A stretch of 64,000 nt of DNA, taken from Kaistia defluvii. Lineage in GTDB: Bacteria > Pseudomonadota > Alphaproteobacteria > Rhizobiales > Kaistiaceae. The number at the start of each line of letters is the position of its first letter. Positions within the stretch are counted from its first letter, which is position 1. Both the position numbers and the translations under genes were made by a program. Location of the stretch: the NCBI RefSeq assembly GCF_026343955.1, contig NZ_JAPKNI010000003.1, positions 186,001-250,000 of the forward strand, read 5' to 3'. Below are positions 43,486-61,567 of the stretch, piece after piece. Under the pieces are notes generated by a model. That model was not told where the DNA came from, did no database searches, and worked only from the letters and a program-made list of their open reading frames with translations.

Positions 43486-43488
43486 ACC

Positions 43489-44844: not shown

Positions 44845-45530
44845 ACCTCTTCAGACGACCCGCCGCGCATTACGGCAAGACGCCGCAGCCCGGGACGCCC
44901 TATCAGCGCGCCGCGCAGGTCTGGGACGAGCGGATCGGCTCGGCCCGCGTGCAGGCGAAGAACTGGCGCTATATGGCCTTCGGCTCGCTGTTCCTCTCCG
45001 CCGGCTTCGCCGGCGCGCTGGTCATCCAGTCGGCGCGCGGGACCGTGGTGCCCTGGGTGGTGCAGGTCGACAATCTCGGCCACTCGCAGGCGGTGGCTCC
45101 GGCGACAGCCGACTATCGGCCGACCGATCCGCAGATCGCATGGCACCTGGCCCGCTTCATCGAGCAGGTCCGCTCCATTCCAGCCGATCCGGTTATCGTG
45201 CGGCAGAACTGGCTTCGCGCCTACGAGTGGACGACCGATCGCGGCGCTGGCGCGCTCAACGACTATGCCCGCGCCAACGATCCCTTCGCCAAGGTCGGCA
45301 GGCAGCAGATCGCCGTCGAGGTCTCCAGCGTCATCCGTGCCTCGCCGGATTCGTTCCGCGTGGCCTGGACCGAACGGCGCTACGAGGACGGTAAGCTCGC
45401 CACGACCGAGCGCTGGACCGCCATCCTGACCATCGCGCTTCAGCCGCCCCGCGACGCCGAACGCCTCAAGGCCAATCCGCTCGGCATCTATGTCAACGCC
45501 ATCAACTGGTCGCGGGAGATGGGCCAATGA
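44841..45530 (+). CDS. trbF: TrbF, VirB8-like inner-membrane scaffold
   Basis: This 229-residue bitopic protein starts MNLFRRPAAHYGKTPQPGTP. It has one membrane segment (MAFGSLFLSAGFAGALVIQS near residue 48) and a periplasmic NTF2-like domain with QIAWHLARFIEQVRSIPADP near residue 97. VirB8 homologues organise assembly of the channel. Four-base overlaps join it to trbL and trbG. Confidence 0.95.
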   Translation: MNLFRRPAAHYGKTPQPGTPYQRAAQVWDERIGSARVQAKNWRYMAFGSLFLSAGFAGALVIQSARGTVVPWVVQVDNLGHSQAVAPATADYRPTDPQIAWHLARFIEQVRSIPADPVIVRQNWLRAYEWTTDRGAGALNDYARANDPFAKVGRQQIAVEVSSVIRASPDSFRVAWTERRYEDGKLATTERWTAILTIALQPPRDAERLKANPLGIYVNAINWSREMGQ

Positions 45531-46486: not shown

Positions 46487-47625
46487 CCGAAGCCGAATCC
46501 AATGCAGCTCCCATGCGCCTGCGCGCCGAAGCCCCCCGCGTCACGCGTCTGTCACGCAAGATGCTCGCCGGAGTCACGGCTGTCGCCCTGGTCGGGATCG
46601 GTGGCGCGCTGATCTATGCGCTCCAAACACGCACCGGCGGCGATGGCGGGGAAGAACTCTATTCCACCGCCAACCGTCAGCCCGCCGATGGTCTTGCCGG
46701 TCTGCCGCGCGACTATACCGGCCCCGTTCTCGGGCCAGCGCTGCCCGGCGATCTCGGCGGCCCGATCCTTAGCGCGCAGAATGCCGGCCAGCCCATAATG
46801 CCGCCCGTTGTTCCGACACCCGGTGTCGACGAGGCCGAGCAGCGCCGTCGCGCCGAGGAAGAGGCCGCCCGCCTCAGCACCGTCTTCTTCCAGTCCCGGC
46901 AGGGGTCGACGACTGCCGCTTCGCCGAGTGCCATGCCCGGCTTTACCGGCTTCGACCCCGCCAGCGCGGCGGGACAGCCGACCGCGCAGGACAAGCAGCT
47001 CGCCTTCCTCAATGCGGCGGCCGACCGGCGCACGGTGACGCCGGATCGCGTCACGCCACCGGCATCGCCCTTCGTGCTTCAGGCCGGCGCGGTCATCTCG
47101 GCCGCGCTCATCACCGGCATCCGTTCCGATCTACCGGGCCAGATCACCGCGCAGGTCACGGAGAACATCTATGACAGCCCGACCGGCAGCATCCTGCTCG
47201 TGCCGCAGGGGACGCGCCTTATCGGTCAGTACGACAACGCCGTGCAGTTCGGCCAGCGCCGCGTTTTGCTCGTCTGGAACCGCCTCATCATGCCGAACGG
47301 CCGCTCGATCGTTCTCGAGCGCCAGCCGGGCGCGGATACGCAGGGCTATGCCGGCCTGGAGGATGGCGTCGATTACCATTGGTGGGATCTCGCCAAGGCG
47401 GCCGCGCTCTCGACCCTGCTCGGCGTCGGAGCGGAACTCGCCACCGATGACAATGACCGCCTGATCCGAGCCATCCGCGACGGCGCGCAGGACACGATCA
47501 ACCAGGCCGGTCAGCAGATCGTCCAGCGTCAGTTGCAGGTCGCGCCGACCCTGACCATCCGGCCCGGTTTCCCGATCCGCGTCATCGTCACCAAGGATTT
47601 GGTGCTCGAACCTTACAGGAGCTGA
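46483..47625 (+). CDS. trbI: TrbI, VirB10-like core channel protein
   Basis: TrbI spans both membranes and senses energy from the ATPases. The 380-residue protein has an N-terminal membrane segment (MLAGVTAVALVGIGGALIYA near residue 27), a Pro-rich periplasmic linker, and a C-terminal beta-barrel domain. That domain includes ENIYDSPTGSILLVPQGTRL near residue 227 and FPIRVIVTKDLVLEPY at the end. It overlaps trbG and is followed two bases later by DUF2274. Confidence 0.95.
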   Translation: MTEAESNAAPMRLRAEAPRVTRLSRKMLAGVTAVALVGIGGALIYALQTRTGGDGGEELYSTANRQPADGLAGLPRDYTGPVLGPALPGDLGGPILSAQNAGQPIMPPVVPTPGVDEAEQRRRAEEEAARLSTVFFQSRQGSTTAASPSAMPGFTGFDPASAAGQPTAQDKQLAFLNAAADRRTVTPDRVTPPASPFVLQAGAVISAALITGIRSDLPGQITAQVTENIYDSPTGSILLVPQGTRLIGQYDNAVQFGQRRVLLVWNRLIMPNGRSIVLERQPGADTQGYAGLEDGVDYHWWDLAKAAALSTLLGVGAELATDDNDRLIRAIRDGAQDTINQAGQQIVQRQLQVAPTLTIRPGFPIRVIVTKDLVLEPYRS

Positions 47626-47627
47626 CC

Positions 47628-47855
47628 ATGACTAAGCTGAAACTCGGCCCCATTGCGGACGATAAACCCGTCAAGGTCGCGCTGGAGCTGCCTGCCGCGC
47701 TCCATCGCGACCTCATGGCCTATGCCGAGATCCTCGGCCGCGAGTCGGGACAGGCATCGGCCGATCCGGTCCGTCTCATTGTTCCTATGCTGGAGCGATT
47801 CATAGCCACGGATCGGGGATTTGTGAAAGCGAGGAAGTCAAAAGCATCGCAGTAA
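47628..47855 (+). CDS. DUF2274 protein
   Basis: This 75-residue protein starts MTKLKLGPIADDKPVKVALE and has a short helix-strand core (LHRDLMAYAEILGRE) like small DNA-binding proteins. It regularly closes the trb operon in this element family. Its last 56 bases overlap the convergent LysR gene, an antisense arrangement. No function is known. Confidence 0.85.
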   Translation: MTKLKLGPIADDKPVKVALELPAALHRDLMAYAEILGRESGQASADPVRLIVPMLERFIATDRGFVKARKSKASQ

Positions 47856-48747
47856 TGATTGTTGCTCTTGTTGATCGGGATAATGTACGCGCGAGACTGA
47901 GCAATCGACGGCAGGCCGGATTATCGTTCCGGGGCGACCACACTGCGCTGAAGGGCAGAACTTCGTTCGCGATCGGTCGATATGTGATTCCTGGGAACTG
48001 TGCGACCGTAGTTGCTTCGCTTGTCAGCGTTAGACCTCGGCCGACCGCTACGAGCGAGAGAAGATTGTCTCGACCGACATATTGTGTGTCAACTTCCGGA
48101 TGCCGTCCAAGATCAGCGAGGCGCTGCACCAAGTAGTCGTGAATCTCCGGCCCCGGCGCCCCGTCGCTTACAATGAACCGCTCGCCGACGAGGTCGCGCC
48201 AGTTGAGTTCCGCCTTGCCGCAGAGCGAGTGGTTAGCGGGAAGGACAACAAATACCCGCTCCCACCAAAGCTGATCGACTTCGCAATCGGGCCACTGCGA
48301 CGTATCGGTGATGAACGCAACATCAAGTCGCAACTGACGAATCGCCGAAACATGATCCGCCGGATCGCCGTCTATCAGCTCGATTCGAACCTGCGCGTGA
48401 CCCTTATCATAAGCACGCAGCAACTCCGACAGGAAGCCCGAGGCGAGCGAGGAGAATATCCCGATCTTGATCCTACCGTCTTCGGAGCGTCCGATCGTCG
48501 CGACGTCCTTTGCACCATACTCGATCTGCCGAAGTGCCTTTCGCGCGTGCCGCACGAAGCGCTGCCCGGCCAGCGTCAGAATGACACCGCCATTGTGCCG
48601 CTGAAAGAGCGAGGCGCCCAAGTCATCCTCAAGATCGCGGATTCGACGGCTGACCGCTGACTCTCGGATGCCAAGCGCCGACGCAGCCTTGCGAAAACTG
48701 CCATGTTCCGCCGCGGCAACGAAATATCGGAGGTGGCGTAGCTCCAC
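47800..48747 (-). CDS. LysR-family regulator at the end of the trb module
   Basis: This 315-residue regulator has the N-terminal winged helix HLRYFVAAAEHGSFRKAASA (residues 4-23) with ALGIRESAVSRRIRDLEDDL, and a periplasmic-binding-like effector domain from about residue 90. It is convergent with DUF2274, whose 3' end it overlaps. LysR genes often mark this end of related elements. Its effector and targets are unknown; no divergent partner gene is present, only the tetR promoter region. Confidence 0.88.
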   Translation of the reverse strand: MELRHLRYFVAAAEHGSFRKAASALGIRESAVSRRIRDLEDDLGASLFQRHNGGVILTLAGQRFVRHARKALRQIEYGAKDVATIGRSEDGRIKIGIFSSLASGFLSELLRAYDKGHAQVRIELIDGDPADHVSAIRQLRLDVAFITDTSQWPDCEVDQLWWERVFVVLPANHSLCGKAELNWRDLVGERFIVSDGAPGPEIHDYLVQRLADLGRHPEVDTQYVGRDNLLSLVAVGRGLTLTSEATTVAQFPGITYRPIANEVLPFSAVWSPRNDNPACRRLLSLARTLSRSTRATIITAMLLTSSLSQIPDPWL

Positions 48748-48921
48748 TTATATCCCGCTGAGTTCATGACGTAACCGGCCCCTCCCACAGGGAGAAAGCA
48801 GGCGCCCTCGTTTCCATTCACATAGGATCGACCAGTACCGGGCGACCGGGATAACGGCCTTGCTGTCGATGACAATTACCCCCTCGCGGTTCCCTCTTGT
48901 GGTATGCACCCATAGCAGATA

Positions 48922-48941
48922 GATAGTAATAAATTACTTTC
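48922..48941. promoter_or_regulatory. TetR-type operator 1 (efflux operon)
   Basis: GATAGTAATAAATTACTTTC contains the perfect 6-2-6 palindrome AGTAAT-AA-ATTACT (48925-48938), ending 20 bases before the tetR start codon. Matching sites occur at 57382, 58203 and 58461. Confidence 0.7.
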
Positions 48942-48958
48942 TTTTACGAGTGCAAGCC

Positions 48959-49567
48959 ATGAGTGGACATCCCAAGCATCTTCCCGCTGACGAGCGACGG
49001 GCGGCAACCGTGGAGGCTGTGGTCGATCTGGCTGCAGAACAGAATCCGAGCGACATCACAACGACGGCCATCGCGCAGCGAATGGGGCTGACCCAGGGGG
49101 CGCTGTTCCGCCACTTCCCGACCAAGGATGCCATCCTGGAGGCAGTCATGTCCTGGGTGGCCGAGCGCTTGCTCGCCCGTGTGGATGAGGCCGCAGAAGG
49201 AGCCACGTCTCCAATCGCAGCCCTTGAGGCGGTCTTCGTGACGCATATCGATTTCGTGTCTGAACACCCGGGGGTGCCAAGAATGCTCTTTGGGGAGTTG
49301 CAACGTCCGGGGGAGACTCTTCCGAAGCGGATGGCCCAGACGTTGATCCGCCACAACGGCGAGCGGCTTCGTGGCTTGCTCGAAGCAGGGAAGACACGGA
49401 GCGAACTGCATGCAGATCTCGATCCAGACGCCGCAGCTACCCTGTTCATCGGCACGGTCCAGGGACTCGTCATGCGATCCATGCTGGCGGGCGATGTCAC
49501 ACGCATCCGTGGCGATGCGCCCGGCGTATTTGCCATTTATCTGCGCGGTATCGGAACGGTGCAATGA
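48959..49567 (+). CDS. TetR-family repressor of the efflux operon
   Basis: This 202-residue regulator starts MSGHPKHLPADERRAATVEA. Its helix-turn-helix, TTAIAQRMGLTQGALFRHFP, lies at about residues 38-57, and its ligand domain is long and helical. It is a close paralogue of the TetR at 57576-58184, sharing most of the helix-turn-helix and the HPGVPRMLFGELQRPGETLP stretch. It overlaps the HlyD gene by four bases and is therefore co-transcribed with the pump it presumably represses. The palindrome just upstream suggests autoregulation. Confidence 0.9.
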   Translation: MSGHPKHLPADERRAATVEAVVDLAAEQNPSDITTTAIAQRMGLTQGALFRHFPTKDAILEAVMSWVAERLLARVDEAAEGATSPIAALEAVFVTHIDFVSEHPGVPRMLFGELQRPGETLPKRMAQTLIRHNGERLRGLLEAGKTRSELHADLDPDAAATLFIGTVQGLVMRSMLAGDVTRIRGDAPGVFAIYLRGIGTVQ

Positions 49568-50595
49568 AGAGTATCCGCCTATCCAGCGTCGCAAAGCGGG
49601 TCATCATTGTTGCCGCCGTCATCACGATAATTGGTGCTGGATGGCTGTGGATGCAGAGCGGCGACCGCGACGACAATGCACTGCGCCTGTATGGCAATGT
49701 CGACATTCGGGAAGTTCAATTGGCCTTCCGTCAGTCGGGCCGTGTAGTGCGGATGCACTTCGATGAAGGAGATCACGTCGAAGCGGGCGCGCGCTTGGCA
49801 AGCCTCGACGCACAGCCATTCGAGGAAGCACTCGCGGCTGCAGACGCGTCTGTGGATGTTTCACAGGCGGAACTCGACAAATTGCGCCGCGGCCTGCGGC
49901 CGCAAGAGATCGCACAGACGCAAGAGGTCCTCAATCAGGCATTGGCCGTCGCCAGGGAGGCGGAGCGCAATTTCGATCGTCAGAGCCAGTTGCTCACGTC
50001 GGGGGCCACGAGTCAAAAAGCGGCCGATACTGCTCGCGCCGCGCGCGATCAGGCCGTGGCCAGTGTCAATGCGGCCCGGGCAGCCCATTCGCAAGCTGCA
50101 GAGGGCTTCCGCAAAGAAGATATCGCAGCGGGGCAAGCCCGCCTGGCCGCCACACAAGCGGCACGAGCACAAGCTGCCACCGCCCTTGCAGACACCGTGC
50201 TGCTTGCGCCAAGCACTGGCACGATAATCGCCCGGGTGCGCGAACCCGGCAGCATGGTTGTCAGCCAGAGCCCGGTCTACAGTGTCAGTCTTGACGCACC
50301 GGTTTATGTGCGCGCTTACATCGGTGAACCGGATCTGGGGCGCATTGCGCCCGGGATGCGAGTGCGCGTTCGCAGCGACTCCTCCGACAAACTCTATCAA
50401 GGTCAGATCGGGTTCATTTCCCCGCGCGCCGAGTTCACGCCAAAAACGGTAGAGACCGCGGATCTGCGCACGGATCTCGTCTATCGCCTGCGGATCGTGG
50501 TGATCAATGCAGATGCAGCGCTGCGCCAGGGCATGCCGGTGACCATTGAGGTCGATGCCGGGAAAGCCTCCAACGCGCGCACCACAGGCCATTAA
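49564..50595 (+). CDS. HlyD/YbhG-type periplasmic adaptor of an ABC efflux pump
   Basis: This 343-residue membrane-fusion protein has one N-terminal membrane anchor (VIIVAAVITIIGAGWLWMQS). A lipoyl half starts near LRLYGNVDIREVQLAFRQSG, a long coiled coil rich in Ala and Gln covers about residues 95-215, and a second lipoyl half contains LLAPSTGTIIARVREPGS. It links the inner-membrane ABC transporter to the outer-membrane protein encoded three genes downstream. Confidence 0.92.
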   Translation: MKSIRLSSVAKRVIIVAAVITIIGAGWLWMQSGDRDDNALRLYGNVDIREVQLAFRQSGRVVRMHFDEGDHVEAGARLASLDAQPFEEALAAADASVDVSQAELDKLRRGLRPQEIAQTQEVLNQALAVAREAERNFDRQSQLLTSGATSQKAADTARAARDQAVASVNAARAAHSQAAEGFRKEDIAAGQARLAATQAARAQAATALADTVLLAPSTGTIIARVREPGSMVVSQSPVYSVSLDAPVYVRAYIGEPDLGRIAPGMRVRVRSDSSDKLYQGQIGFISPRAEFTPKTVETADLRTDLVYRLRIVVINADAALRQGMPVTIEVDAGKASNARTTGH

Positions 50596-52378
50596 CGTGT
50601 CGGGTAGCGTAACATCGGACCCGCCTCGCGACCCTAATAGTGAGGTCGCGGTCGTCATCGACGGGGTGAACAAGCATTTTGGCAGCGTGCATGCATTGCA
50701 GGGCTTGAACGCACATATCCGGTACGGCTGCCTTACCGGGCTGGTTGGACCGGACGGCGCAGGCAAGACCACCTTGATGCGCATCCTGACAGGTCTGCTG
50801 ACACCGGACAGTGGCCACGCCACGGTGGCGGGTTTCGATGTGGTGGGCGACAATGACGCCATCCACGTCGCAACCGGCTACATGCCGCAGCGCTTTGGTC
50901 TCTACGAAGACTTGTCGGTCATGGAGAATATGCGGCTCTATGCGCAGTTGCGCGGCATGGATGCCGACAGGAACGCTGATCTTTTCGCGGAATTGCTCGA
51001 CTTCACGCGCCTTGCCCCCTTTACCGAACGCCTGGCGGGCAAGCTCTCCGGCGGCATGAAGCAAAAGCTGGGTCTCGCCTGCGCCCTGATGGCCCGGCCT
51101 GCCGTACTGTTGCTTGATGAACCCGGCGTCGGCGTCGACCCGGTCAGCCGTCAGGACCTGTGGCGCATGGTGCAGGCGTTGACCGACGAAGGAATGGCTG
51201 TGGTCTGGTCGACCGCCTACCTCGACGAAGCCGAGCGCTGCGACAGCGTATTGCTGCTCAACGAAGGGCAACTCGCTTATGACGGACCGCCCGGAGAGTT
51301 GACGGCGCGCCTTACAGACCGAAGCTTTCGCCTGGAGCAGGTCGGCGATAGCCGCCGGGCCGTGCTTGCCGAAGCACTGAATCTGGAAAGCGTCAGCGAT
51401 GGGGTAATCCAGGGTGCCGGCGTACGCATGGTGTTGCGTGCGCATTCGGGAACCGAACAGATAACCGCGCTTGCCGATCGGGTCGAGGCGCAGCTCAGGG
51501 CGGTGCCCGCCCGCTTCGAAGACGCCTTCATCGACCTTCTTGGCGGCGGCCCCGGCGGCACATCGGCGCTCGCCGAGGGGTTGCCTCCTGTCGAGCTTGC
51601 TTCGGACGTCGCCGTTTCCTGCCGCGATCTGACGAAGCGCTTTGGTGCTTTCACAGCCACCGACACTGTGAGCTTCGAGGTCCGCAAGGGAGAAATCTTT
51701 GGTCTGCTCGGGCCGAACGGCGCTGGCAAATCGACGACGTTCAAAATGCTGTGCGGCCTGCTCAAACCCACCAGCGGAGAGGCGCATGTGGTGGGCCTCG
51801 ATCTGCGCCGGGCGACCGGCGCGGCCAAGGGCCAGCTTGGCTATATGGCGCAGAAGTTCTCGCTCTATGGTTTGCTATCCGTGCGGCAAAATCTGGAGTT
51901 CTCCGCAGGCGTATATGGCCTGGAAGGCGCAGCGCGGCAGGCGCGGATCGCGGAGATGGTCGAAATCTTCGGTCTGCAGACCTGGTTGTCGGCGGCGCCG
52001 GATTCGCTGCCGCTCGGATATAAGCAACGCCTAGCACTGGCCTGCGCGGTGATGCATCGCCCGCCCGTGCTGTTCCTGGATGAGCCGACTTCAGGCGTCG
52101 ATCCCATCACTAGGCGCGAATTCTGGACCCATATCAACGGTCTTGCCCGCAAGGGCGTGACGGTGATGGTCACCACCCATTTCATGGACGAGGCAGAATA
52201 TTGCGATCGGGTTGCGATGCTTTATCGCGCCCGGCTGATCGCGCTCGATACGCCGGACGCTCTCAAGCGCGGCGCTGTCAGTGATCTTCGGCCGGACCCG
52301 ACCATGGAAGACGCGTTCATTCATCTGGTCGAAGCCGAAGATCTCGCTGACGACCCTCGCAGCGGGACGACCGCATGA
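50555..52378 (+). CDS. YbhF-type ABC transporter ATPase with two nucleotide-binding domains
   Basis: This protein of about 607 residues carries two ATPase domains. The first has Walker A GPDGAGKTTLMRIL near residue 65, the signature LSGGMKQKLGLACAL and Walker B LLLDEPGVGVDPV. The second has GPNGAGKSTTFKML near residue 385, a degenerate signature, LPLGYKQRLALACAV, and LFLDEPTSGVDPI. The start is uncertain: ATG 50555 overlaps hlyD, while GTG 50597 lies just after its stop. It energises export through the two permeases that follow. Confidence 0.9.
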   Translation: MPGKPPTRAPQAINVSGSVTSDPPRDPNSEVAVVIDGVNKHFGSVHALQGLNAHIRYGCLTGLVGPDGAGKTTLMRILTGLLTPDSGHATVAGFDVVGDNDAIHVATGYMPQRFGLYEDLSVMENMRLYAQLRGMDADRNADLFAELLDFTRLAPFTERLAGKLSGGMKQKLGLACALMARPAVLLLDEPGVGVDPVSRQDLWRMVQALTDEGMAVVWSTAYLDEAERCDSVLLLNEGQLAYDGPPGELTARLTDRSFRLEQVGDSRRAVLAEALNLESVSDGVIQGAGVRMVLRAHSGTEQITALADRVEAQLRAVPARFEDAFIDLLGGGPGGTSALAEGLPPVELASDVAVSCRDLTKRFGAFTATDTVSFEVRKGEIFGLLGPNGAGKSTTFKMLCGLLKPTSGEAHVVGLDLRRATGAAKGQLGYMAQKFSLYGLLSVRQNLEFSAGVYGLEGAARQARIAEMVEIFGLQTWLSAAPDSLPLGYKQRLALACAVMHRPPVLFLDEPTSGVDPITRREFWTHINGLARKGVTVMVTTHFMDEAEYCDRVAMLYRARLIALDTPDALKRGAVSDLRPDPTMEDAFIHLVEAEDLADDPRSGTTA

Positions 52379-53544
52379 ACGGCGTGAACGAACCGCGCCC
52401 GCATCACCGGGTGCCTCTTGAGGCCATGCGCCGCTTCGACCCAAAGCGTCTTTGGGCGCTGGTGCTCAAGGAAAGCCTGCAGGCGATGCGCGATCCATCC
52501 ACGCTGTTGATCGCCTTCGTCCTTCCGGTCGTACTGTTATTTCTGTTTGCCTATGCCGTGTCGCTGGACGTGCGTGCGGTGCGCATTGGCGTCGTGCAGG
52601 AATCCGAATCCGCGTCAGCTCAATCACTGGCCGCCGCATTCGCCGGCACACGCTATCTGGACGTTACCTTCGCCCATGACCGGCGCGAGGTCGCTGACCG
52701 GGTCGTCTCCGGCAGCCTGCGCGGCTTTGTCGTGATTCCGCAGGATTTCGAGCAACGGCTGGCCAATCGTGGAGCTCAGCCTCTCGTGCAGATCATCACC
52801 GATGGCTCGCAACCCAATACCGCCAACTATGTCACGAACTATGCGCAGGGCGTCGTGCAGACCTGGCGGAACGGCCTTGGTGTCGAGGCATCCCCGGCAG
52901 GCGTAACACTGGAACCCCGCTACTGGTTCAACGCAGAGCTGGAAAGCCGCCGTTCGCTCGTACCCGGCGCCATCGCCATCGTCATGACCATCATTGGCAC
53001 CATGCTGACCGCCCTCGTGGTCGCACGCGAATGGGAACGGGGCACGATGGAAGCGGTGCTTTCAACGCCCGCTTCTGTCGTTGAAATCCTCATTGGAAAG
53101 CTCTTGCCCTATTTTGCGCTTGGTATGTTGTCCACGCTTGGCGCCACGGTGCTGGCGGTCTTCGTGTTCGACGTGCCACTGCGCGGATCGCTGGCTGCTC
53201 TTCTTTTGCTTTCGGCCACGTTCATGGTTCCTGCGCTCGGCCAAGGGTTGCTGATCTCCTCTGTTACGCGCAATCAGTTTCTGGCTGCACAGATTGCACT
53301 GTTCTCCGGCTTTCTTCCGGCATTCATGCTGTCGGGCTTTCTCTATGAGATCGACGCCATGCCAGCGCCGATCCGGGCCATCACCTGGCTGATCCCGGCA
53401 CGTTATTTCGTGTCTTCGCTGAAGACCATCTTTCTGGCCGGAGACATCTGGGCGGTCTTTGTGCCAAACCTCTTGGCGATGGCCGGAATCGGAATCCTGT
53501 TTTTCCTCCTGGCGAAACGCGCCACGCGCAAGAATCTGGAGTGA
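52375..53544 (+). CDS. ABC-2 type permease (YbhS-like)
   Basis: This 389-residue inner-membrane protein has the ABC-2 layout: an N-terminal cytoplasmic start (RLWALVLKESLQAMRDPSTL), a first membrane helix, a large periplasmic loop (about residues 60-200) and five further membrane helices. The region around VAREWERGTMEAVLSTPASV near residue 222 is the family motif. It overlaps the ATPase gene by four bases and pairs with the next permease as a heterodimer. Confidence 0.9.
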   Translation: MNGVNEPRPHHRVPLEAMRRFDPKRLWALVLKESLQAMRDPSTLLIAFVLPVVLLFLFAYAVSLDVRAVRIGVVQESESASAQSLAAAFAGTRYLDVTFAHDRREVADRVVSGSLRGFVVIPQDFEQRLANRGAQPLVQIITDGSQPNTANYVTNYAQGVVQTWRNGLGVEASPAGVTLEPRYWFNAELESRRSLVPGAIAIVMTIIGTMLTALVVAREWERGTMEAVLSTPASVVEILIGKLLPYFALGMLSTLGATVLAVFVFDVPLRGSLAALLLLSATFMVPALGQGLLISSVTRNQFLAAQIALFSGFLPAFMLSGFLYEIDAMPAPIRAITWLIPARYFVSSLKTIFLAGDIWAVFVPNLLAMAGIGILFFLLAKRATRKNLE

Positions 53545-53550
53545 GAGGCC

Positions 53551-54675
53551 GTGGCGCAACACAATAGCTATTTCGCTTTCACCCGACTGCGGGCGCAGTT
53601 CATCAAGGAAGTCCTGAGCATCCTGCGCGACCCGCGCAGCCGGATGGTCGTGTTCGTGCCGCCACTGTTGCAATTGCTGGTGTTTGCTTTCGCCGCCACG
53701 CTTGAAGTGCGCAATGTCGATATCGCCGTGCACAATCAGGATGCGGGCCGCTGGTCGTATGAACTGATCACACGGCTGGACCGGGCCGAGTTCATTGCCA
53801 AAGTCCATCACGTGACCGACAGCCAGGCGTTGCGCCAGCTTATCGACCAGGGCAAGGTGATCGCGGCGCTCGATATCCAGCCAGACTTTTCGCGCTCCAT
53901 TGCTGCCGGCGACAACGGTCGCATCCAGGTGCTGATCGATGGCCGGCGGAGCAATTCAGGGCAGATCACCACCGGTTATCTCTCTGCCATCGCTGCCGAG
54001 GTTGGAGCGGAGGCCAACGCCGACGCCGGTCCCGCAACGCCAGCGGCGGTGCGCAACTGGTTCAATCCCAATCTGACGTACCGCTGGTTCATCGTACCCG
54101 GTCTCTCCGGCATATTGGCCTTCTTCAGCGCGCTGCTTATTACCTCGCTGTCGATCGCCCGCGAACGCGAACTGGGTACGTTCGACCAGTTGCTGGTGTC
54201 ACCGACCTCCACGCCGGAAATCATCGTGTCCAAGTCGCTGCCGGCGCTGGTCATCGGCACCATGCTCGGACTTCTGATGATGGCGGCAGCGGCCGGGCCG
54301 TTCCAGATTCCGTTTAACGGCTCGTTTGGGTTGCTTTTTGTCAGCCTGGTCCTGTTCATCCTGTCGGTGGTGGGCATCGGCTTGATGATTTCCGCGATCA
54401 GCGCGACCCAGCAGCAGGCCATCCTTGGCGCCTTCGCCATCGGCGTGCCCGCCGTTCTGATGTCGGGCTTCGCCACGCCGGTCGAGAACATGCCCACAGT
54501 GCTGCAATGGCTGGCGCAGGCGATTCCACTCACCCATTTCCTGATCATCGTGGAAGGCAGCTTTCTCAAGGCAATGTCGCCCGGCGATATTCTTGCCAGC
54601 CTTTGGCCATTGGCGCTGATCGCCCTGGTGTCGCTGACCATGGCCATCATCTTCGTTCGAGGACGTCTGCAATGA
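53551..54675 (+). CDS. ABC-2 type permease (YbhR-like)
   Basis: This second permease, 374 residues, starts at a GTG after GAGAG. It has the same layout: an N-terminal helix at MVVFVPPLLQLLVFAFAATL, a periplasmic loop to about residue 175, then helices starting at GILAFFSALLITSLSIARER with the motif RERELGTFDQLLVSPTSTPE. The stop overlaps the start of the outer-membrane gene. Together the operon encodes a full tripartite pump. Confidence 0.9.
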   Translation: MAQHNSYFAFTRLRAQFIKEVLSILRDPRSRMVVFVPPLLQLLVFAFAATLEVRNVDIAVHNQDAGRWSYELITRLDRAEFIAKVHHVTDSQALRQLIDQGKVIAALDIQPDFSRSIAAGDNGRIQVLIDGRRSNSGQITTGYLSAIAAEVGAEANADAGPATPAAVRNWFNPNLTYRWFIVPGLSGILAFFSALLITSLSIARERELGTFDQLLVSPTSTPEIIVSKSLPALVIGTMLGLLMMAAAAGPFQIPFNGSFGLLFVSLVLFILSVVGIGLMISAISATQQQAILGAFAIGVPAVLMSGFATPVENMPTVLQWLAQAIPLTHFLIIVEGSFLKAMSPGDILASLWPLALIALVSLTMAIIFVRGRLQ

Positions 54676-56171
54676 GTTTGATCCACTATCGCCAGTCAGA
54701 ATCTTTGGCGGATCCGGGCGGACCTTCCTCTCGATGGCCGAATTTCATAGTATTGATCTTCGGCTGCACCTCGTTGACCGCCTGCGTCGTCGGTCCCGAC
54801 TATCGCGTGCCACCTTCCATTGATACGGGCAGCGGCTGGACCCGGCCCGTTCCGAAGGCGCCTGCGCCAACGGACCTTACGCGCTGGTGGACAACACTTG
54901 GCGATCCTGAATTGGAGCGATTGGTCGACACCGCCCTCGCTGAAAACCTGGATATCCGCCAGGCGGCGGCGCGTATCGACGAAGCGCGCGCGCTGCGGGA
55001 TCGGGCCGCTGGTCAGCAACTGCCCGCTGTTTCCGCGGGCGCTAGCGTGAACCGGCGTCGGCAAAGTGAAAATGGCCCGCTGCCCATTGGCGTCATTCCC
55101 GGCCTCGAAGCGTCGCAGACAATCTACGATGCCGGTTTTGACGCGGCCTGGGAACTCGACCTGTTCGGCGCCAATCGGCGGGCGTTGGAAGGCGCAAGCG
55201 CCCGCTTGCAGGCAACGGAAGCCGAAGCGCTGGGCGTTCGCATGCGGATCGCGGCCGAAGTCGCCCGCACGTGGTTCGAGGCGACCGGCGCCAGAGAGGA
55301 ATTGCGTACGCAGCAGGCGACGGTCGCAACCCTGCAACAGACCCTGGACCTCATGCGCAGCCGTGCCGCTCTCGGCGACGTTTCCGGTGCCGACGTGGAT
55401 GCAGCCTATGAGCGATGGGCCGCGGCCAGTGCCATGCTACCAGGCATCGAGGCTCGACAGCGCGGGGCGGTGCTCGGTCTTGGCGCCCTGCTCGGCTCAC
55501 CGCCGGAACGGGAACTAAAGCTGCTCGATACCGCCGCGTCGACCCTTACACTGCCGGCGCTGCCCGTGGGCGAACGTGCCGACATATTGCGTCGCCGCCC
55601 CGATATTCTGGCAGCCGAACGGCGGCTGGCCGCCAGCACCGCCGATATCGGCGTGACTACCGCGGAGCTGTTCCCCAAGCTGTCCATTGGCGCTGGGGGC
55701 GGATTCCAGGCGCTCAGTCCCGGCGACTGGTTCGACTCATCCAGCAGCCGCTTCTCCATCCTCCCACTCATTTCGTGGCGATTGTTCGATGGAGGCCGTG
55801 TGCGCGCAGAGATCCGTGCCCGGAAGGCTGCTCAGCGGCAGGCCGCGCTGGGCTATGAGCAGGCCGTACTGACAGCGCTGGGCGATGCGGAGCGCACTTT
55901 GGGCGACTATGAAGCGGGACTGGATGCGCTTGCACTTCGTCAAGCGGCGCTGGAGGCGTCACGCCGCAGCTTTCGTCATGCTGAAACGCGCTTTACTGCC
56001 GGCGACATCGCGCGAGTTGAATGGCTTGCGGCCCAGCGTCTCCTGCACGAGGCCGAAATTGCAAATGTGCGTGCGCAGACGACAGCTGCCGTTCAGTTGG
56101 TAGCATTGTACAAAGCGATCGGAGGCGGCTGGAGTGCGGCCGAAGTAACCTCATCCACCCCCATTTCGTAA
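54672..56171 (+). CDS. NodT-type outer-membrane efflux lipoprotein
   Basis: This 499-residue TolC-like channel has a lipobox around TSLTAC (Cys38) and the family start VVGPDYRVPPSIDTGSGWTR. Two outer-membrane efflux repeats follow, with LDIRQAAARIDEARALRDRA near residue 93 and RADILRRRPDILAAERRLAA near residue 305. The start at 54672 forms an ATGA overlap with the upstream permease. It completes the efflux operon that begins at tetR. Confidence 0.93.
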   Translation: MSLIHYRQSESLADPGGPSSRWPNFIVLIFGCTSLTACVVGPDYRVPPSIDTGSGWTRPVPKAPAPTDLTRWWTTLGDPELERLVDTALAENLDIRQAAARIDEARALRDRAAGQQLPAVSAGASVNRRRQSENGPLPIGVIPGLEASQTIYDAGFDAAWELDLFGANRRALEGASARLQATEAEALGVRMRIAAEVARTWFEATGAREELRTQQATVATLQQTLDLMRSRAALGDVSGADVDAAYERWAAASAMLPGIEARQRGAVLGLGALLGSPPERELKLLDTAASTLTLPALPVGERADILRRRPDILAAERRLAASTADIGVTTAELFPKLSIGAGGGFQALSPGDWFDSSSSRFSILPLISWRLFDGGRVRAEIRARKAAQRQAALGYEQAVLTALGDAERTLGDYEAGLDALALRQAALEASRRSFRHAETRFTAGDIARVEWLAAQRLLHEAEIANVRAQTTAAVQLVALYKAIGGGWSAAEVTSSTPIS

Positions 56172-56220
56172 CAGGTTCGGTGGTCGACTTTTGGGCAGCG
56201 ATGTATTGTCGGCTACCATT

Positions 56221-56709
56221 CTACAGTATATTGTCGTTGCCGTGACGCGGCATCTCCTTCCCAGGACAATCGGGATTATTTGATCTCGAACCAGTTTCCG
56301 TAATTGGCGAAGTTGAATAAGCACTGCGCGCGACCAATGCGACAATGCTCACGATACACCAAAATGTGGTCCGCAGGCTCATGGCAACGAGAGTTCGCAT
56401 TTCGTAAGCGCCACCCTGGAAGATCCACACACCAAAGCCAGCAAAGACTATGACAGTAGCAACAGCTACAGAGACCGCGGATGCAGGCGCCCATCTGCTT
56501 CGCAACATCAAACCAATCCCGATGATGATGTATGTAAATCCAGCAAGAAAATTAAAATATAAGACGAATGGTACAATTTTCTCGCTAGATTCGATTATCC
56601 CATGAAGACCGAGAATAGCGTTTCCACCCGAAACGACCGTGGCTATTCCAAATAGAATTGCCGCTACACCGGAGGCTTTTATAGCCACATTTATTCTATG
56701 TTTAGACAT
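56221..56709 (-). CDS. Four-helix membrane protein, family not recognised
   Basis: This 162-residue protein has about four membrane segments (ASGVAAILFGIATVVSGGNA, VLYFNFLAGFTYIIIGIGLM, AVSVAVATVIVFAGFGVWIF and TTFWCIVSIVALVARSA). The region is visibly lower in GC than its neighbours, which hints at separate origin. It is the last gene of a minus-strand trio led by a truncated TetR gene. Function is unknown. Confidence 0.65.
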   Translation of the reverse strand: MSKHRINVAIKASGVAAILFGIATVVSGGNAILGLHGIIESSEKIVPFVLYFNFLAGFTYIIIGIGLMLRSRWAPASAVSVAVATVIVFAGFGVWIFQGGAYEMRTLVAMSLRTTFWCIVSIVALVARSAYSTSPITETGSRSNNPDCPGKEMPRHGNDNIL

Positions 56710-56743
56710 CGACCTCGCCCCATTCGCTCTTGTGAAGCGTAGC

Positions 56744-57133
56744 CTATCGTTCCAACTTGAAGAGCTGCTCGCCAGCCCTCATGCCGATATATCCATTGTT
56801 GGATCGCACCAATTGCACGCACCGCTCGGGAAGCAGGGTGCCGGGTTTGAGGCATAGGCCATCTGGCGTCGCTCTCCATTTCGGAGACAATTCCACAGGC
56901 CCGCCGGTCATCTTGCCTTTGCCGTTTTCAAAAAGGACAAGGGTGGTAACGCGGCCATCGTCCATCGTCATCTTCCACGGACGCCCGTCCGTAATATTGT
57001 GGGCAGGCGACATCTGCTCTGCCATTACAGGGGCAACCGAAATCCCCATCACAAATGTTGTGAACACTGAAATTAGTAGCACGAAGCGATTTACTTGACC
57101 GCTTCGGCGATAATTAATCAGGGCGTCCTTCAT
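56744..57133 (-). CDS. Small secreted protein, family not recognised
   Basis: This 129-residue protein has a signal-like segment (FVLLISVFTTFVMGISVAPV with cleavage near VMA-EQ), so an internal start at MGISV is unlikely. The mature part contains DGRVTTLVLFENGKGKMTGG near residue 59 and two cysteines (GLCLKPG, ERCVQLV) that could form a disulfide. It lies six bases after the truncated tetR gene and before a membrane-protein gene, so the three are probably co-transcribed. Confidence 0.65.
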   Translation of the reverse strand: MKDALINYRRSGQVNRFVLLISVFTTFVMGISVAPVMAEQMSPAHNITDGRPWKMTMDDGRVTTLVLFENGKGKMTGGPVELSPKWRATPDGLCLKPGTLLPERCVQLVRSNNGYIGMRAGEQLFKLER

Positions 57134-57139
57134 TTATAT

Positions 57140-57379
57140 CTACTCCAGAGGTTGCAGAGGCCCATCGTCAGCATGGCGCTCTACACTCACGCCAACCCAC
57201 GATTCCTTGGGCGGTCGATCAAAGCGTCCTTGGATAACTCCCAACCGTTTGGCGACAGCTTCGGTCGTGAGATCCGTAGAATCTTGTTTGCGGGCAAGGT
57301 CAACGACGGTTTGGACCGTCGCTTCACGTCGGTCACCCGGGCGAAGACGAGCTTGCCGACGGACCATATATGCCGTCAT
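57140..57379 (-). pseudogene. Truncated TetR-family gene (helix-turn-helix only)
   Basis: A 79-codon frame starts MTAYMVRRQARLRPGDRREA and contains TVQTVVDLARKQDSTDLTTE and AVAKRLGVIQGRFDR, clearly related to the DNA-binding half of the two complete TetR genes nearby (TVQAVVDLAAEQNPAEITTT in one of them). The recognition helix end is altered (the usual ALFRHFPTK is absent) and the ligand domain is missing. It may be a remnant or a small DNA-binding protein. Its ATG lies inside the palindromic operator. Confidence 0.65.
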
Positions 57380-57409
57380 TAGAAAGTAACTTATTACTAT
57401 CTAATGACG
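57374..57409. promoter_or_regulatory. TetR-type operator 2 within a 36-bp palindrome
   Basis: The core AGTAAC-TT-ATTACT (57385-57398) is enclosed by perfect 9-bp arms CGTCATTAG (57374-57382) and CTAATGACG (57401-57409). On the minus strand the 20-base site reads GATAGTAATAAGTTACTTTC, differing from operator 1 at a single base. The left arm contains the start codon of the truncated tetR gene. Confidence 0.7.
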
Positions 57410-57575
57410 GCGCGATTTGTCAAGTGTGCCCAGTCCGGAGCAGGAAAGCTCTCCTGCCCTAGCCTTCTATGGCAGTAGCGAAGAGAGGATCAGCGGCAGC
57501 CCGAGACCGGACGCAAAGGGCGTTGCCGAGTAAAGGTTGACGCTGGTGCGCCTTAACCCCGGAAGCAGAGAGCTT

Positions 57576-58184
57576 TCATTGCGCAGCTTCAATGCCACGG
57601 CGATAGATGGCATACACGGCTGGGGCGTCACGGCGAATCCGACTAACCTTGCCGGCCAACAATGACTGCATGACCAATCCCTGAATGGTGCCGATGAACA
57701 ACACGGCCGCGGCATCCACATTCAGTTCCGCATTCAGTTCGCCTTGCGCCTTGCCTGCTTCCATCAGGCGACGCAGCCGCTGTTCGTACTGACGGATCAA
57801 GGTCTGGACCATTCGCTTCGGAAGGGTCTCGCCCGGTCGTTGCAACTCCCCGAACAGCATTCTTGGCACACCCGGGTGCCTTGCCACGAAATCGATGTGC
57901 GTCATGAACATGGCTTCGAGGGCCGCCGCTGGGGTCGCCGCGCCTTCGGCCGCCTTGTCCACGCGGGCCAGCAGGCGTTCACTGACCCAGGACATGGTTG
58001 CTTCCAGGATCGCGTCCTTGGTGGGGAAGTGGCGAAACAGCGCGCCCTGCGTCAAGCCCATTCGATCCGCAATTGCGGTGGTCGTAATCTCGGCCGGGTT
58101 TTGCTCGGCCGCCAGATCCACAACGGCCTGTACGGTGGCGGCTCGCCGTTCTTCGGCGCGCAGGTATTGAGGGCGTTCGTTCAC
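57576..58184 (-). CDS. TetR-family repressor divergent from the pha operon
   Basis: This 202-residue protein starts MNERPQYLRAEERRAATVQA and has the helix-turn-helix TTAIADRMGLTQGALFRHFP at about residues 38-57. It is a paralogue of the TetR at 48959, with near-identical DNA-binding helices, so both probably recognise the same operator. It is divergent from phaC, with two operator-like sites in the 311-base gap. It may repress both itself and the pha-pta-ack operon. The ligand is unknown. Confidence 0.9.
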   Translation of the reverse strand: MNERPQYLRAEERRAATVQAVVDLAAEQNPAEITTTAIADRMGLTQGALFRHFPTKDAILEATMSWVSERLLARVDKAAEGAATPAAALEAMFMTHIDFVARHPGVPRMLFGELQRPGETLPKRMVQTLIRQYEQRLRRLMEAGKAQGELNAELNVDAAAVLFIGTIQGLVMQSLLAGKVSRIRRDAPAVYAIYRRGIEAAQ

Positions 58185-58202
58185 TGTTCAGATCTCCACA
58201 TA

Positions 58203-58222
58203 GTGAGTGATGTATTACTTCA
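58203..58222. promoter_or_regulatory. TetR-type operator 3 (upstream of the second full tetR)
   Basis: The core AGTGAT-GT-ATTACT (58206-58219) differs at one position from AGTAAT-N2-ATTACT. It lies 18 bases upstream of the minus-strand tetR start codon, a position suited to autorepression. Confidence 0.55.
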
Positions 58223-58460
58223 ATAATCGTCAAATGTCTTCCCGGAAGAAGGTCAATCTGACGATTCGGGACAGAACGAGCGAGGCTGTGATCATAGGTA
58301 ACGGTGGTCTGGTTCGGCTTGGTTCGATGCGTTGCGACGTCACTTGCGTGGAAAGTCGCTGAGCGCGACTCGGCGGCGTCAGCCAGAAACCCGCGCGTGC
58401 CGATGCCCCAGAAGAACTGTCGTCGGCGACGTGGGTTGCACATTCGCGCAAAGACGATTA

Positions 58461-58480
58461 GATAGTAATATGTCACTTAC
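58461..58480. promoter_or_regulatory. TetR-type operator 4 (upstream of phaC)
   Basis: GATAGTAATATGTCACTTAC begins with the same ten bases as operator 1 and has the core AGTAAT-AT-GTCACT (58464-58477), with two changes from the consensus. It ends 15 bases before the phaC start codon. Confidence 0.6.
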
Positions 58481-58495
58481 TAAACGGGGCTGGTG

Positions 58496-60256
58496 ATGAA
58501 CACTGCTGCCATGATTGACAAGCCCGCGTCGGCATCGCTTGAAAGCGCGCCCCCCGATGCCTTGGATGCGGTTGCTAACGCCTTGCGGGCACGTGGCACT
58601 GGCGGGTTGTCGCCGGCGGCGGGCTTGTTGGCGTGGTATGACTGGGCGCTGCACCTGAGTCTTTCACCGGGCAAGCAGCGCAACCTGCTGGAAAAGGGGC
58701 TGCACAAGCAGCAGCGACTCGCGCGTTATGCAGTGCGCGCGGCAAGTGCGCACGACTGCCCGACTTGCATTGAGCCGCTGGAGCAGGATCGGCGCTTCGC
58801 CGATTCTGCTTGGCAGCAATGGCCCTTCAACGTGATTCACCAGGGCTTCTTGCTGCAGCAGCAGTGGTGGCACAATGCCACCACCGGCGTGCGCGGCGTG
58901 TCCCGCCATCACGAGAGATTGGTCACTTTCGCCGGGCGGCAGTGGCTGGACATGTGGTCGCCTGCGAATTTCATTTGGACCAACCCCGAGGTGCTGCGCG
59001 CCATCGCGGATAGCGGTGGCGCCAACCTGTGGCGCGGTGCGATGAACTTCCTCGATGATGCGCGGCGTCTCGCGCTGAACGATGCGCCAGCAGGGGTCGA
59101 AGGGTTCGAGGTTGGCAAGGACGTGGCGGTCACACCAGGAAAGGTGGTGTACCGCAACCACCTGATCGAACTGATCCAATACACACCCACGACACCTGAT
59201 GTGTATGCCGAGCCGGTCCTGATCGTGCCATCCTGGATCATGAAGTACTACATCCTCGACCTGTCGCCGCACAACTCGATGGTGAAGTATCTGGTCGACC
59301 AGGGGCATACGGTTTTCATTATTTCATGGAAGAACCCGACCGCAGCCGATCGCGACCTCAGCCTGGACGACTACCGGCGTTTGGGGGTCATGGACGCGTT
59401 GGACGCGGTCACGGCCATCGTGCCTGAGCGCAAGGTGCAAGCCGTCGGCTATTGCCTGGGCGGTACCTTGTTGGCGATCGCTGCTGCTGCGATGGCGCGC
59501 GATGGTGACGAACATCTGCAAAGTTTGACGCTGCTAGCGTCTGAGACCGACTTTCGTGAATCTGGCGAGATCGCGCTTTTCATCGACGAGAGCCAACTGG
59601 CGTGGCTCGAGGCCGGCATGTGGGACAAGGGCTATCTTGACGGCAGGCAGATGGCTGGCGCGTTCCAGATGCTCAATTCGCGTGACCTGATCTGGTCACG
59701 ACAGGTTCGCGAATACCTGTTGGGTGAGCGGCAAGTCTTCAACGATCTGATGGCCTGGAATGCCGACGTGACCCGCATGCCGTATCGCATGCACAGCGAG
59801 TACCTGCGGCAACTGTATCTGGGCAACGATCTGGCAGAGGGACGCTATCAGGTCGACGGGAGGCCGGTGGCGCTCGCCGACATCGACGTGTCCATGTTCA
59901 TCGTCGGCACGGTGCGCGATCACGTCGCTCCTTGGCCCTCTGTGTACAAGATGCACCTGCTCAGTGATGCGGAGTTGACCTTCGTGCTCACCAGCGGTGG
60001 GCACAACGCCGGCGTGGTCAGCGAGCCGGGGCATCCCCGGCGCAGCTTCCAGATTGCCACCCGTGCCGCCGGCAAGCGCTACGTCGATCCGCAGATGTGG
60101 CGCGCCGAGACGCCTTTGCACGAGGGTTCCTGGTGGCCGGCCTGGCAGCAGTGGTTGGCGCAGCGCTCGGCCGGGCGCGTAGCGCCACCTGCCATGGGCG
60201 GCAGCACGTACACACCACTTGGCGACGCGCCCGGGACATACGTGGCAATGACGTGA
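58496..60256 (+). CDS. phaC: Class I polyhydroxyalkanoate synthase
   Basis: PhaC polymerises hydroxyacyl-CoA into storage polyester granules. The 586-residue protein has the lipase-box-like motif GYCLGG with the catalytic cysteine at residue 320, close to Cys319 of Cupriavidus PhaC. The aspartate lies in VGTVRDHVAPWPSVY and the histidine in LTSGGHNAGVVSEPGH. The N-terminal PhaC domain has WWHNATTGVRGVSRHHERLV near residue 122. The ATG at 58496 was chosen over an adjacent GTG at 58493. It heads an operon with phasin, phaB and acetyl-phosphate genes. Confidence 0.94.
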   Translation: MNTAAMIDKPASASLESAPPDALDAVANALRARGTGGLSPAAGLLAWYDWALHLSLSPGKQRNLLEKGLHKQQRLARYAVRAASAHDCPTCIEPLEQDRRFADSAWQQWPFNVIHQGFLLQQQWWHNATTGVRGVSRHHERLVTFAGRQWLDMWSPANFIWTNPEVLRAIADSGGANLWRGAMNFLDDARRLALNDAPAGVEGFEVGKDVAVTPGKVVYRNHLIELIQYTPTTPDVYAEPVLIVPSWIMKYYILDLSPHNSMVKYLVDQGHTVFIISWKNPTAADRDLSLDDYRRLGVMDALDAVTAIVPERKVQAVGYCLGGTLLAIAAAAMARDGDEHLQSLTLLASETDFRESGEIALFIDESQLAWLEAGMWDKGYLDGRQMAGAFQMLNSRDLIWSRQVREYLLGERQVFNDLMAWNADVTRMPYRMHSEYLRQLYLGNDLAEGRYQVDGRPVALADIDVSMFIVGTVRDHVAPWPSVYKMHLLSDAELTFVLTSGGHNAGVVSEPGHPRRSFQIATRAAGKRYVDPQMWRAETPLHEGSWWPAWQQWLAQRSAGRVAPPAMGGSTYTPLGDAPGTYVAMT

Positions 60257-60366: not shown

Positions 60367-60810
60367 ATGAACAGCGAACTGCCCATCCAACTCTACAAAG
60401 CCAACGCCGAGCTACAGCTACAGATCACTCGTTTGCTGCAAGAAAGCGGACATCGCTGGCTAGAAGCCATGCAACAGCTCAGCGCTGGCGGCGTAGAGGA
60501 AACCACTGCGCGCATCCAGAGGCTTCAGCAGGCGGCAGACTGGCAGGCGCTCGCGACCTTGCCATCCGAGGCGTTCCGGTGCCTGTATCAGGGCCGCGTT
60601 GGCGATGCCCAAGCAATCGCTCAAACCGCCACCAGGGGCCAGGCCGCCTTTGTCGATGGCCTGCGCCAGGCGCTCGCGACCTGGCAGGCGTCTGTCTCCG
60701 AGACACTTGGTGCTAGTGGTGACGCTGCTTCTTTTGCGCAGCTTTTTCAGCCATGGACACAGCCCTGGTCTGCACCAGCCGCCACGCCCAAGAGCAAGGC
60801 CGAAAAGTGA
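60367..60810 (+). CDS. Phasin-like granule-associated protein
   Basis: This 147-residue helical protein starts MNSELPIQLYKANAELQLQI. A long amphipathic region includes ARIQRLQQAADWQALATLPS near residue 50 and a C-terminal Ala/Pro/Lys tail (SAPAATPKSKAEK) like that of phasins. Position between phaC and phaB supports a coat protein for PHA granules. Sequence conservation in phasins is low, so the name rests partly on context. Confidence 0.75.
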   Translation: MNSELPIQLYKANAELQLQITRLLQESGHRWLEAMQQLSAGGVEETTARIQRLQQAADWQALATLPSEAFRCLYQGRVGDAQAIAQTATRGQAAFVDGLRQALATWQASVSETLGASGDAASFAQLFQPWTQPWSAPAATPKSKAEK

Positions 60811-60820: not shown

Positions 60821-61567
60821 ATGAGTACCTCTCAGCGAACAGCCCTGGTGACCGGAGGCAACCGGGGATTGGGCGCCGCGATCGCCCGTGCTCTGCACGA
60901 CGTCGGCCACCGCGTAATCGTGACACATACGCCGGGCAACACCACGATTGACCAGTGGCAGCAAGCGCAAGCAACACAGGGTTATACATTCGCCGCCTAC
61001 GGGGTGGATGTGTCCGAATACGAATCGACGCAGCAACTGGCGCGGCGCATCCACGCCGATGGTGATCGGATCGACATTCTGGTGAACAACGCCGGCATCA
61101 CCCGCGATGCCACGCTGCGCAAGCTCGACAAGGCCGGCTGGGATGCCGTGCTGCGCACCAACCTGGACTCCCTGTTCAATGTCACCAAGCCATTCATTGA
61201 TCCGATGGTGGAGCGAGGTTGGGGACGCATCGTAAACATTTCTTCGATCAATGGCAGCAAGGGCCAGTTTGGCCAGACCAATTACTCGGCTGCCAAGGCC
61301 GGCGTGCATGGATTCACCAAGGCGTTGGCGCAAGAGGTGGCGCGCAAGGGCGTGACGGTCAACACCGTCTCGCCTGGCTACCTGGCCACCGAGATGGTGA
61401 TGGCGGTGCGCGAGGACGTACGCCAGAAGATCATCGATGCGATACCAGTCGGCCGCCTTGGTCAGCCGGATGAGATCGCAGCGATGGTAGCATTCATCAC
61501 GAGTGATGCCGCTGCCTTCATGACCGGCAGCAACGTCGCCATGAACGGCGGTCAGCACATGTACTGA
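60821..61567 (+). CDS. phaB: Acetoacetyl-CoA reductase (SDR family)
   Basis: PhaB reduces acetoacetyl-CoA to 3-hydroxybutyryl-CoA with NADPH, feeding PhaC. The 248-residue SDR protein has the cofactor motif TALVTGGNRGLGAAIARALH, NNAG at about residue 90, and the catalytic Ser, Tyr and Lys in ISSINGSKGQFGQTNYSAAK. SPGYLATEMVMAVREDVRQK follows near residue 186. The start follows a strong GTGAGGAGG site. No thiolase gene (phaA) is seen in the window. Confidence 0.92.
   Translation: MSTSQRTALVTGGNRGLGAAIARALHDVGHRVIVTHTPGNTTIDQWQQAQATQGYTFAAYGVDVSEYESTQQLARRIHADGDRIDILVNNAGITRDATLRKLDKAGWDAVLRTNLDSLFNVTKPFIDPMVERGWGRIVNISSINGSKGQFGQTNYSAAKAGVHGFTKALAQEVARKGVTVNTVSPGYLATEMVMAVREDVRQKIIDAIPVGRLGQPDEIAAMVAFITSDAAAFMTGSNVAMNGGQHMY

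Follow-up and report, generated by a model that had tools for sequence, protein, structure and literature searches.

A candidate operator shared by tetR genes, an efflux operon and a polyester-storage operon in Kaistia defluvii

Introduction

Why does one palindrome stand before a drug-type efflux operon, before an operon for polyhydroxyalkanoate (PHA) storage and before several tetR genes of the same genome, and could one kind of TetR repressor read all of its copies? The question is raised by a stretch of 64,000 nucleotides of Kaistia defluvii (the window, to which plain positions refer), which corresponds to C15:186001-250000 of a genome of 4.9 Mb in 21 contigs. An earlier note on this DNA had described four copies of AGTAAT-N2-ATTACT near three tetR genes, hlyD and phaC, and had proposed one regulon that ties tripartite efflux to polyester storage and acyl-phosphate ATP production. 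The sites, their conservation, their positions, their specificity and the order of the genes can be read directly from the DNA. With a probability of about 0.8, the palindrome would be the operator of a mobile TetR subfamily that jointly controls the efflux and phaC operons.

Operator sites in the window and the genome

When up to 2 mismatches are allowed, AGTAAT-N2-ATTACT is found exactly four times in the window, at 48925 (0 mismatches), 57385 (1), 58206 (1) and 58464 (2), which confirms the sites of the earlier note against a mean of 0.13 matches, and at most 1, in 100 dinucleotide shuffles. Operator O1 (48921..48942, core 48925-48938) lies between a LysR gene and tetR1, O2 (57381..57402) upstream of a truncated tetR and of the genes p8 and p7, O3 (58202..58223) at the tetR2 promoter and O4 (58460..58481) upstream of phaC. 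The note had also asked whether the motif is scattered over the genome. Sites with 0 or 1 mismatch are not: there are four only, all on C15, at 181371 and 234925 (0 each) and at 243385 and 244206 (1 each). The site at C15:181371 is a new, perfect fifth site, located 4.6 kb left of the window; it precedes the start of tetR3, a third full paralogue, by 33 bp.

Conservation extends beyond the 14-mer. In an alignment of 60 distinct tetR-promoter sites (including that of L022, the locus of Kaistia adipata DSM 17808, whose tetR2 is identical, so that it represents the species of the window or a very near one), G at -3 is present in 56 and C at +16 in 59, symmetric about the dyad. The fuller operator, as predicted from this alignment, is about 22 bp long and is written AGNNAGTRAYNNRTYACTNNCT. 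In the genome it has four places with zero mismatches, before tetR3, tetR1 (O1), the truncated tetR (O2) and phaC (O4), and none with one mismatch, while O3, the own site of tetR2, has 2 mismatches and is level with three background places.

The sites were also scored with a matrix of 26 columns, for which 52 distinct tetR-promoter sites from other loci were used; the window and L022 were excluded, and the matrix thereby avoids pattern letters that had been chosen with the window sites in view. It gives 43.1 bits for O1, 38.5 for O2, 35.7 for O4, 15.5 for O3 and 46.2 for the fifth site, compared to 2.7 bits for the next non-overlapping place in the window and up to 7.5 bits in 20 mononucleotide shuffles. 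Chance placement of the window sites was rejected on the basis of the shuffles and the matrix scores. The matrix reverses the ranking by mismatch counts that the earlier note had used: by its scores, the phaC site is predicted to be strong and the own site of tetR2 to be weak. O2 overlaps a promoter-like pair, TTGACA-N16-GATAGT. It also lies inside a longer inverted repeat of ~38 bp (57373-57410, CCGTCATTAGA...TCTAATGACGG), which is present in L022 too.

Operators before tetR and phaC in relatives

Relatives were collected by a contig scan with tetR2, and the best 80 of the matches listed gave 79 loci, namely L022 and 78 others. Their tblastn neighbours reveal two kinds of efflux operon behind tetR: hlyD, ABC, ABC-2, ABC-2 and an outer-membrane efflux protein as in the window, or the kind headed by tetR3. 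The first kind occurs without a divergent phaC in 42 loci and with one in 15, and the second in 14; two further loci have a divergent phaC only, and in six, short contigs among them, no such gene set lies in reach.

Upstream of tetR, at 26-40 bp, a site scoring 15 bits or more is present in 78 of the 78 loci with enough upstream DNA (L045, with 5 bp only, was left out). This count is partly circular, since 52 of these sites served to train the matrix and its lowest training score was 15 bits. If mismatches are simply counted instead, 77 of the 78 have a site with up to 3 of them. A second site is found before the divergent phaC in all 17 loci with this arrangement, L022 being one of them; these sites were absent from the training of the matrix, and their near end lies 16-20 bp from the phaC start. 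Among the 61 loci without phaC, a second site is present in two (L037 and L062), each of which has some other divergent operon. The efflux operon is headed by the same tetR in 15 of the 17 phaC-divergent loci, such that a single repressor gene stands between both operons with one operator per promoter, the layout that the earlier note had suggested looking for in other genomes. O4 is a conserved island in the alignment of the 17 loci: conservation rises from 0.48-0.63 in the middle of the phaC-tetR intergenic DNA to 0.86-0.93 at both operators, and it is raised in the flanking promoter and coding DNA as well. One regulon linking efflux and polyester storage, as the note had proposed, is supported by this comparison of sequences.

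Sixteen whole genomes, behind 16 of the 79 loci and picked for holding such a tetR, contain 40 sites of the 22-bp form (up to 1 mismatch) and 0 hits of the control. Read by their neighbours, 24 of the sites belong to tetR (G398:C5:449154 only by analogy with C15:181371), 8 to phaC, 4 to traR, 2 to p8 and 1 to the divergent region of L062, and 1 is background (G403:C1:2178176, for which L170 has no matrix hit). Advenella faeciporci has a phaC operon 18 kb from the tetR of L087, with a 33.7-bit operator before phaC (L171). L171 holds no tetR up to the contig end 2.4 kb upstream, with 4.6 kb on the other side outside the look-up, and its site is predicted to serve phaC without an adjoining tetR. 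At larger distances, 10 of 398 genomes of the phylum, besides the own genome, have a TetR match at E 1e-40 (about 40-56% identical), and nine of these ten TetRs have a variant site (up to 3 mismatches) in the 130 bp upstream of them, though not at a fixed distance.

Related genes also occur in other settings. A universal-stress-protein gene and a tetR1-like gene (62%) diverge in L179 (G406:C23), with an operator between them. A related TetR on a Citrobacter portucalensis plasmid (L007) has a 46-bit operator and heads an operon of adaptor, permease, ABC protein and outer-membrane efflux protein beside copies of IS4321/IS5075. Related TetRs were found in 215 plasmid records, many from Enterobacterales, and a plasmid search with the phaC DNA gave 108 records with 60-80% matches only.

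TetR proteins and their descent

tetR1 (48959..49567, + strand) is the first gene of the efflux operon. Its open reading frame (ORF) opens at GTG 48950, and ATG 48959, which fits the usual spacing with the operator at -34, is most likely the start. tetR2 (57576..58184, - strand) is divergent from phaC. Both proteins match PF00440 (TetR_N) and PF16925 (TetR_C_13) above cut-off, and they are 76% identical. Their recognition helices, called nearly identical in the earlier note, are identical in the alignment. tetR3 (L005:4747-5352, equal to C15:180746-181351) is 63% identical to tetR2.

The third tetR of the window (57140..57379, - strand) is a remnant of 79 codons that keeps the N-terminal part (50% identity over query 4-51), has an altered recognition-helix region and has no ligand domain. 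It is a fossil and not a working regulator. Three working TetRs within the window were rejected on account of this truncation; the third full paralogue is the tetR3 outside the window. O2, located 31 bp before ATG 57367 of the remnant, is among the strongest sites. In L063 the remnant at the same place has decayed further and contains stops, and in L063 and L064 an operator with no mismatch (39.3 bits) stands before p8. The retention of the operator before p8 despite the decayed tetR fits control of the p8-p7 unit in trans by a paralogous TetR. p8 (56744..57133, - strand) encodes a small protein with a signal-like start and p7 (56221..56709, - strand) a small membrane-type protein; neither matches a Pfam or NCBIfam family. 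In many relatives a p7-like protein is encoded between tetR and hlyD, and a p8 homologue stands beside p7 in L025, L063 and L064 (both by tblastn).

A maximum-likelihood tree was built from 82 TetR rows, 66 of them different. In it, all 17 phaC-divergent TetRs and tetR2 fall into one clade of 29 rows (100/92), 11 of which have no phaC in reach. tetR1 belongs to a clade of 9 rows (100/99), mostly from Sphingomonadales, that lacks phaC, and the label 'phaC plus pump' takes 6 changes on the tree. Given this distribution over the clades, the tetR2 clade seems to have combined this TetR with phaC early on, with losses, and the window appears to join two lineages. The stretch MGLTQGALFRHFP is found in 72 of the 82 rows; the search string was not located in 4 rows. 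By sequence, the best relative of these proteins among solved structures and in NCBIfam is SlmA, although the scores with NF007015 (79.3 and 80.3 bits) remain under its cut-off of 120. SlmA is a nucleoid occlusion factor with a different site and role.

Genes of the efflux and PHA operons

On the + strand, tetR1 is followed by an HlyD-type membrane-fusion protein (49564..50595; NCBIfam NF002939 over cut-off), an ATPase with two ABC domains (50546..52378; two ABC_tran stretches), two ABC-2 permeases (52375..53544 and 53551..54675; both PF12698) and an outer-membrane efflux protein (54507..56171; PF02321, TIGR01845 over cut-off). The coordinates of the ATPase and of the outer-membrane protein are those of the ORFs, with the true start probably inside. 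The row of tetR, hlyD, double ABC and two ABC-2 permeases in the window is that of the CecR-YbhGFSR type.

The second operon, also on the + strand, starts with the PHA synthase gene phaC (58493..60256), which matches PhaC_N and PHBC_N of Pfam. Its best NCBIfam match is TIGR01838 (class I) at 539.6 bits, under the cut-off of 622.65 for a class I assignment. Next is a phasin-like protein (60367..60810), named by its position in the operon since it has no NCBIfam match, and kept after phaC in relatives. It is followed by phaB for acetoacetyl-CoA reductase (60821..61567; TIGR01829 over cut-off), a fusion of MaoC with phosphate acetyltransferase (Pta) (61617..63044; NF006045 over cut-off) and ackA for a kinase of the acetate/propionate family (63041..64000 and past the window end, L008:6042-7244; NF005462 over cut-off). 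A role of MaoC-Pta and AckA in acyl-phosphate ATP production is predicted from annotation alone. After ackA, a gene for a patatin-like lipoprotein is present (L008:7488-8684, window 64488 onward), whose product weakly resembles phospholipases of anti-phage systems (25.7 bits, far under cut-off).

The genes behind tetR3 encode an adaptor (RND_mfp over cut-off), a permease with a weak likeness to DevC/ADOP and an ABC ATPase that stays under every named cut-off shown; together they form an operon that may be labelled MacAB-like. An RND pump gene lies directly upstream of tetR3.

Mobile setting and traR

The window carries marker genes of the Tn4371 family and related integrative and conjugative elements (ICEs). 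These are the coupling protein gene traG (35720..37705, + strand; PF02534; 70% identical to the TraG of L035) and the trb mating-pair genes (38327..47625, + strand), of which six scanned ORFs match T2SSE/TrbB-like, TrbE-like, TrbL, VirB8/TrbF, CagX/TrbG and TrbI families of Pfam. A LysR regulator gene (47800..48747, - strand) comes after trbI in the opposite orientation and is 178 bp away from O1; its position matches that of traR, and its product shares only 27% identity with the traR-type protein of L035. Integrase-family matches are located on C15 at 111332, 148347 and 516038. Another TraG of this type (70%), at C16:388693-389994, suggests that the genome contains a further related element.

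In five relatives the pha operon points towards traR, with tetR 7-8 kb away, and a further operator-like site of 26-37 bits lies 148 bp before traR (L023:1548, L024:2184, L034:2873, L035:2868, L036:2869). The operator was found at none of 10 traR genes in six genomes with no tetR within ~1.5 kb, nor at the LysR genes of L033 and L072-L076 (49-50% identical). According to PMC11448139, the LysR-type gene traR of Tn4371-family ICEs is transcribed together with cargo genes and activates excision and transfer; in a mutant without the cargo repressor BphS, both traR transcription and transfer are increased.

Proposed mechanism and alternative explanations

TetR binding, repression, cross-reading of sites and response to a ligand are predictions from these features. 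A TetR dimer (or a pair of dimers) would bind about 22-24 bp, AAG-N2-AGTAAT-N2-ATTACT-N2-CTT, over the -10/start region and repress the adjoining gene, until a ligand, probably hydrophobic or an organic acid, releases it. Each tetR would repress itself together with the efflux operon that it heads. In the tetR2 clade the same repressor would also cover the divergent phaC promoter, and the efflux operon and the phaC-phasin-phaB-(MaoC-)Pta-AckA operon would be induced together. PhaC, phasin, PhaB, MaoC-Pta and AckA would then, judging from their annotation, absorb an overflow of acyl-CoA or refill ATP during the export of toxic compounds. In Kaistia the module seems to have been rearranged: tetR2 would have stayed with phaC, a tetR1 of Sphingomonadales type would head the efflux operon, a decayed tetR would have left its operator before p8-p7, and tetR3 would head a second, MacAB-like pump. 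tetR1 and tetR2 would read each other's sites in this genome, and because the recognition helices are alike, the three TetR proteins are likely to act on all five sites as a single network.

Several observations weigh against joint control by this operator. As a genome-wide marker the 14-mer was rejected, having no excess over a reversed control pattern at up to 2 mismatches (10 places in the genome versus 19) and being present in 33 of the 398 phylum genomes, 31 of them without a TetR match at E 1e-40; the own genome and G086 are the only carriers with such a TetR. Six of the 10 places have 2 mismatches, one being the phaC site, and because of the control and the five other places in this class the 14-mer count cannot single out the phaC site. 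The 22-bp form at up to 3 mismatches likewise has 37 places, as many as its control, and its R and Y letters were set after the window sites had been seen. The own operator of tetR2 is weak, and autoregulation there may therefore be lost. Promoter scans gave a promoter-like pair only at O2 and none at O1, O3 and O4, for which reason the placement of promoters at tetR1, tetR2 and phaC is taken from the alignment of relatives. Moreover, these relatives are not independent, several elements being near-copies; the tetR site of L035 has 4 mismatches, and one of the ten distant TetRs (L109) has no site within its upstream region.

The same sites could also serve two separate local circuits, in which each TetR controls its neighbour only, the operators are alike by descent of paralogous tetR promoters and efflux and PHA genes are not co-regulated here. 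Such circuits would suit paralogues that fall into different clades at 76% identity, tetR genes that have sites of their own, and efflux and phaC genes that each adjoin a TetR. However, the phaC site is no copy of a tetR promoter; second sites occur only with phaC (17/17) or another divergent operon (2/61). One TetR would serve both operons in 15 of the 17 phaC loci, the recognition helices are identical and a site is kept before p8 alongside a dead tetR, and separate circuits are considered unlikely. It is very improbable that the motif is instead a conserved promoter element (an extended -10 region) of mobile genes: its left flank TAAGAT is like a -10 box and the promoter-like pair overlaps O2, but the conservation is palindromic and two-sided, the C at +16 lies beyond any -10 box, the motif tracks this TetR family, and all 10 traR regions without a nearby tetR lack it.

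For the traR-proximal sites of the five loci, the chances are even that they are only scars, remnants of a tetR promoter dating from an insertion of the pha operon between traR and tetR. Where the insert is absent, tetR is divergent from traR with the site between them (L028, L069, L084, L087, L094), and the L024 site has 3 mismatches; against scars speak the scores of all five sites and the nearly perfect long dyad in L035. An operator of a mobile TetR subfamily remains the preferred reading of the palindrome as such. Its extension to traR is tentative, with the balance tilted against it: on Tn4371-like ICEs the TetR regulon might couple pumps, the PHA/acyl-phosphate operon and traR, such that one inducer switches on detoxification, rerouting of carbon and energy, and conjugation, and paralogous TetRs in rearranged hosts might maintain the network by way of operators that have survived the loss of their regulator genes.

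Comparison with known systems

The closest likeness in gene order is the CecR (YbiH)-YbhGFSR system of E. coli, in which a TetR gene stands in an operon with an HlyD-type adaptor, an ATPase and two membrane components and the operon is reported to be bound by CecR (PMC7190983 and PMC8249747). CecR differs in being listed as a single-target regulator (cecR-ybh operon/rhlE), and its system has no PHA operon and is not on an ICE. Unlike CecR-YbhGFSR, the efflux operon of the window has its own outer-membrane protein. The YbhF ATPase has two ABC domains.

In the BjG30 locus of Bradyrhizobium japonicum, an efflux pump, TetR genes and genes related to polyhydroxybutyrate (PHB) are combined and co-induced by genistein; its pump is of the RND type, however, and the PHB genes encode acetoacetate decarboxylase and hydroxybutyrate dehydrogenase, not phaC. 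A word search of that paper's text found no inverted repeat or palindrome named (PMC4070704). In ICEKKS102Tn4677 of the Tn4371 family, the bph cargo adjoins traR and its repressor BphS lowers traR transcription, but that study detected no BphS site in the 1 kb before traR (PMC11448139), in contrast to the TetR-type site there in five loci here.

BphS is not known as a TetR protein. PhaD of Pseudomonas is a TetR-like regulator of pha genes, an activator of medium-chain-length PHA genes that is not known to act on efflux. No description of the present module was recognised among the papers listed in the literature searches, which largely excluded subscription papers, and the passages available on Tn4371 in R. 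pickettii and on PHA in Achromobacter A41 do not describe it.

Significance

Pumps under TetR control are widespread, yet annotation gives no hint that polyester storage and acyl-phosphate metabolism would share one repressor with a pump. The pairing occurs in alpha-, beta- and gammaproteobacteria, often beside conjugation genes, and the defined 22-bp site makes the proposed regulon testable and predicts its members by sequence. If the sites before traR work, they would provide a second way, besides bph, of tying the induction of ICE cargo to transfer.

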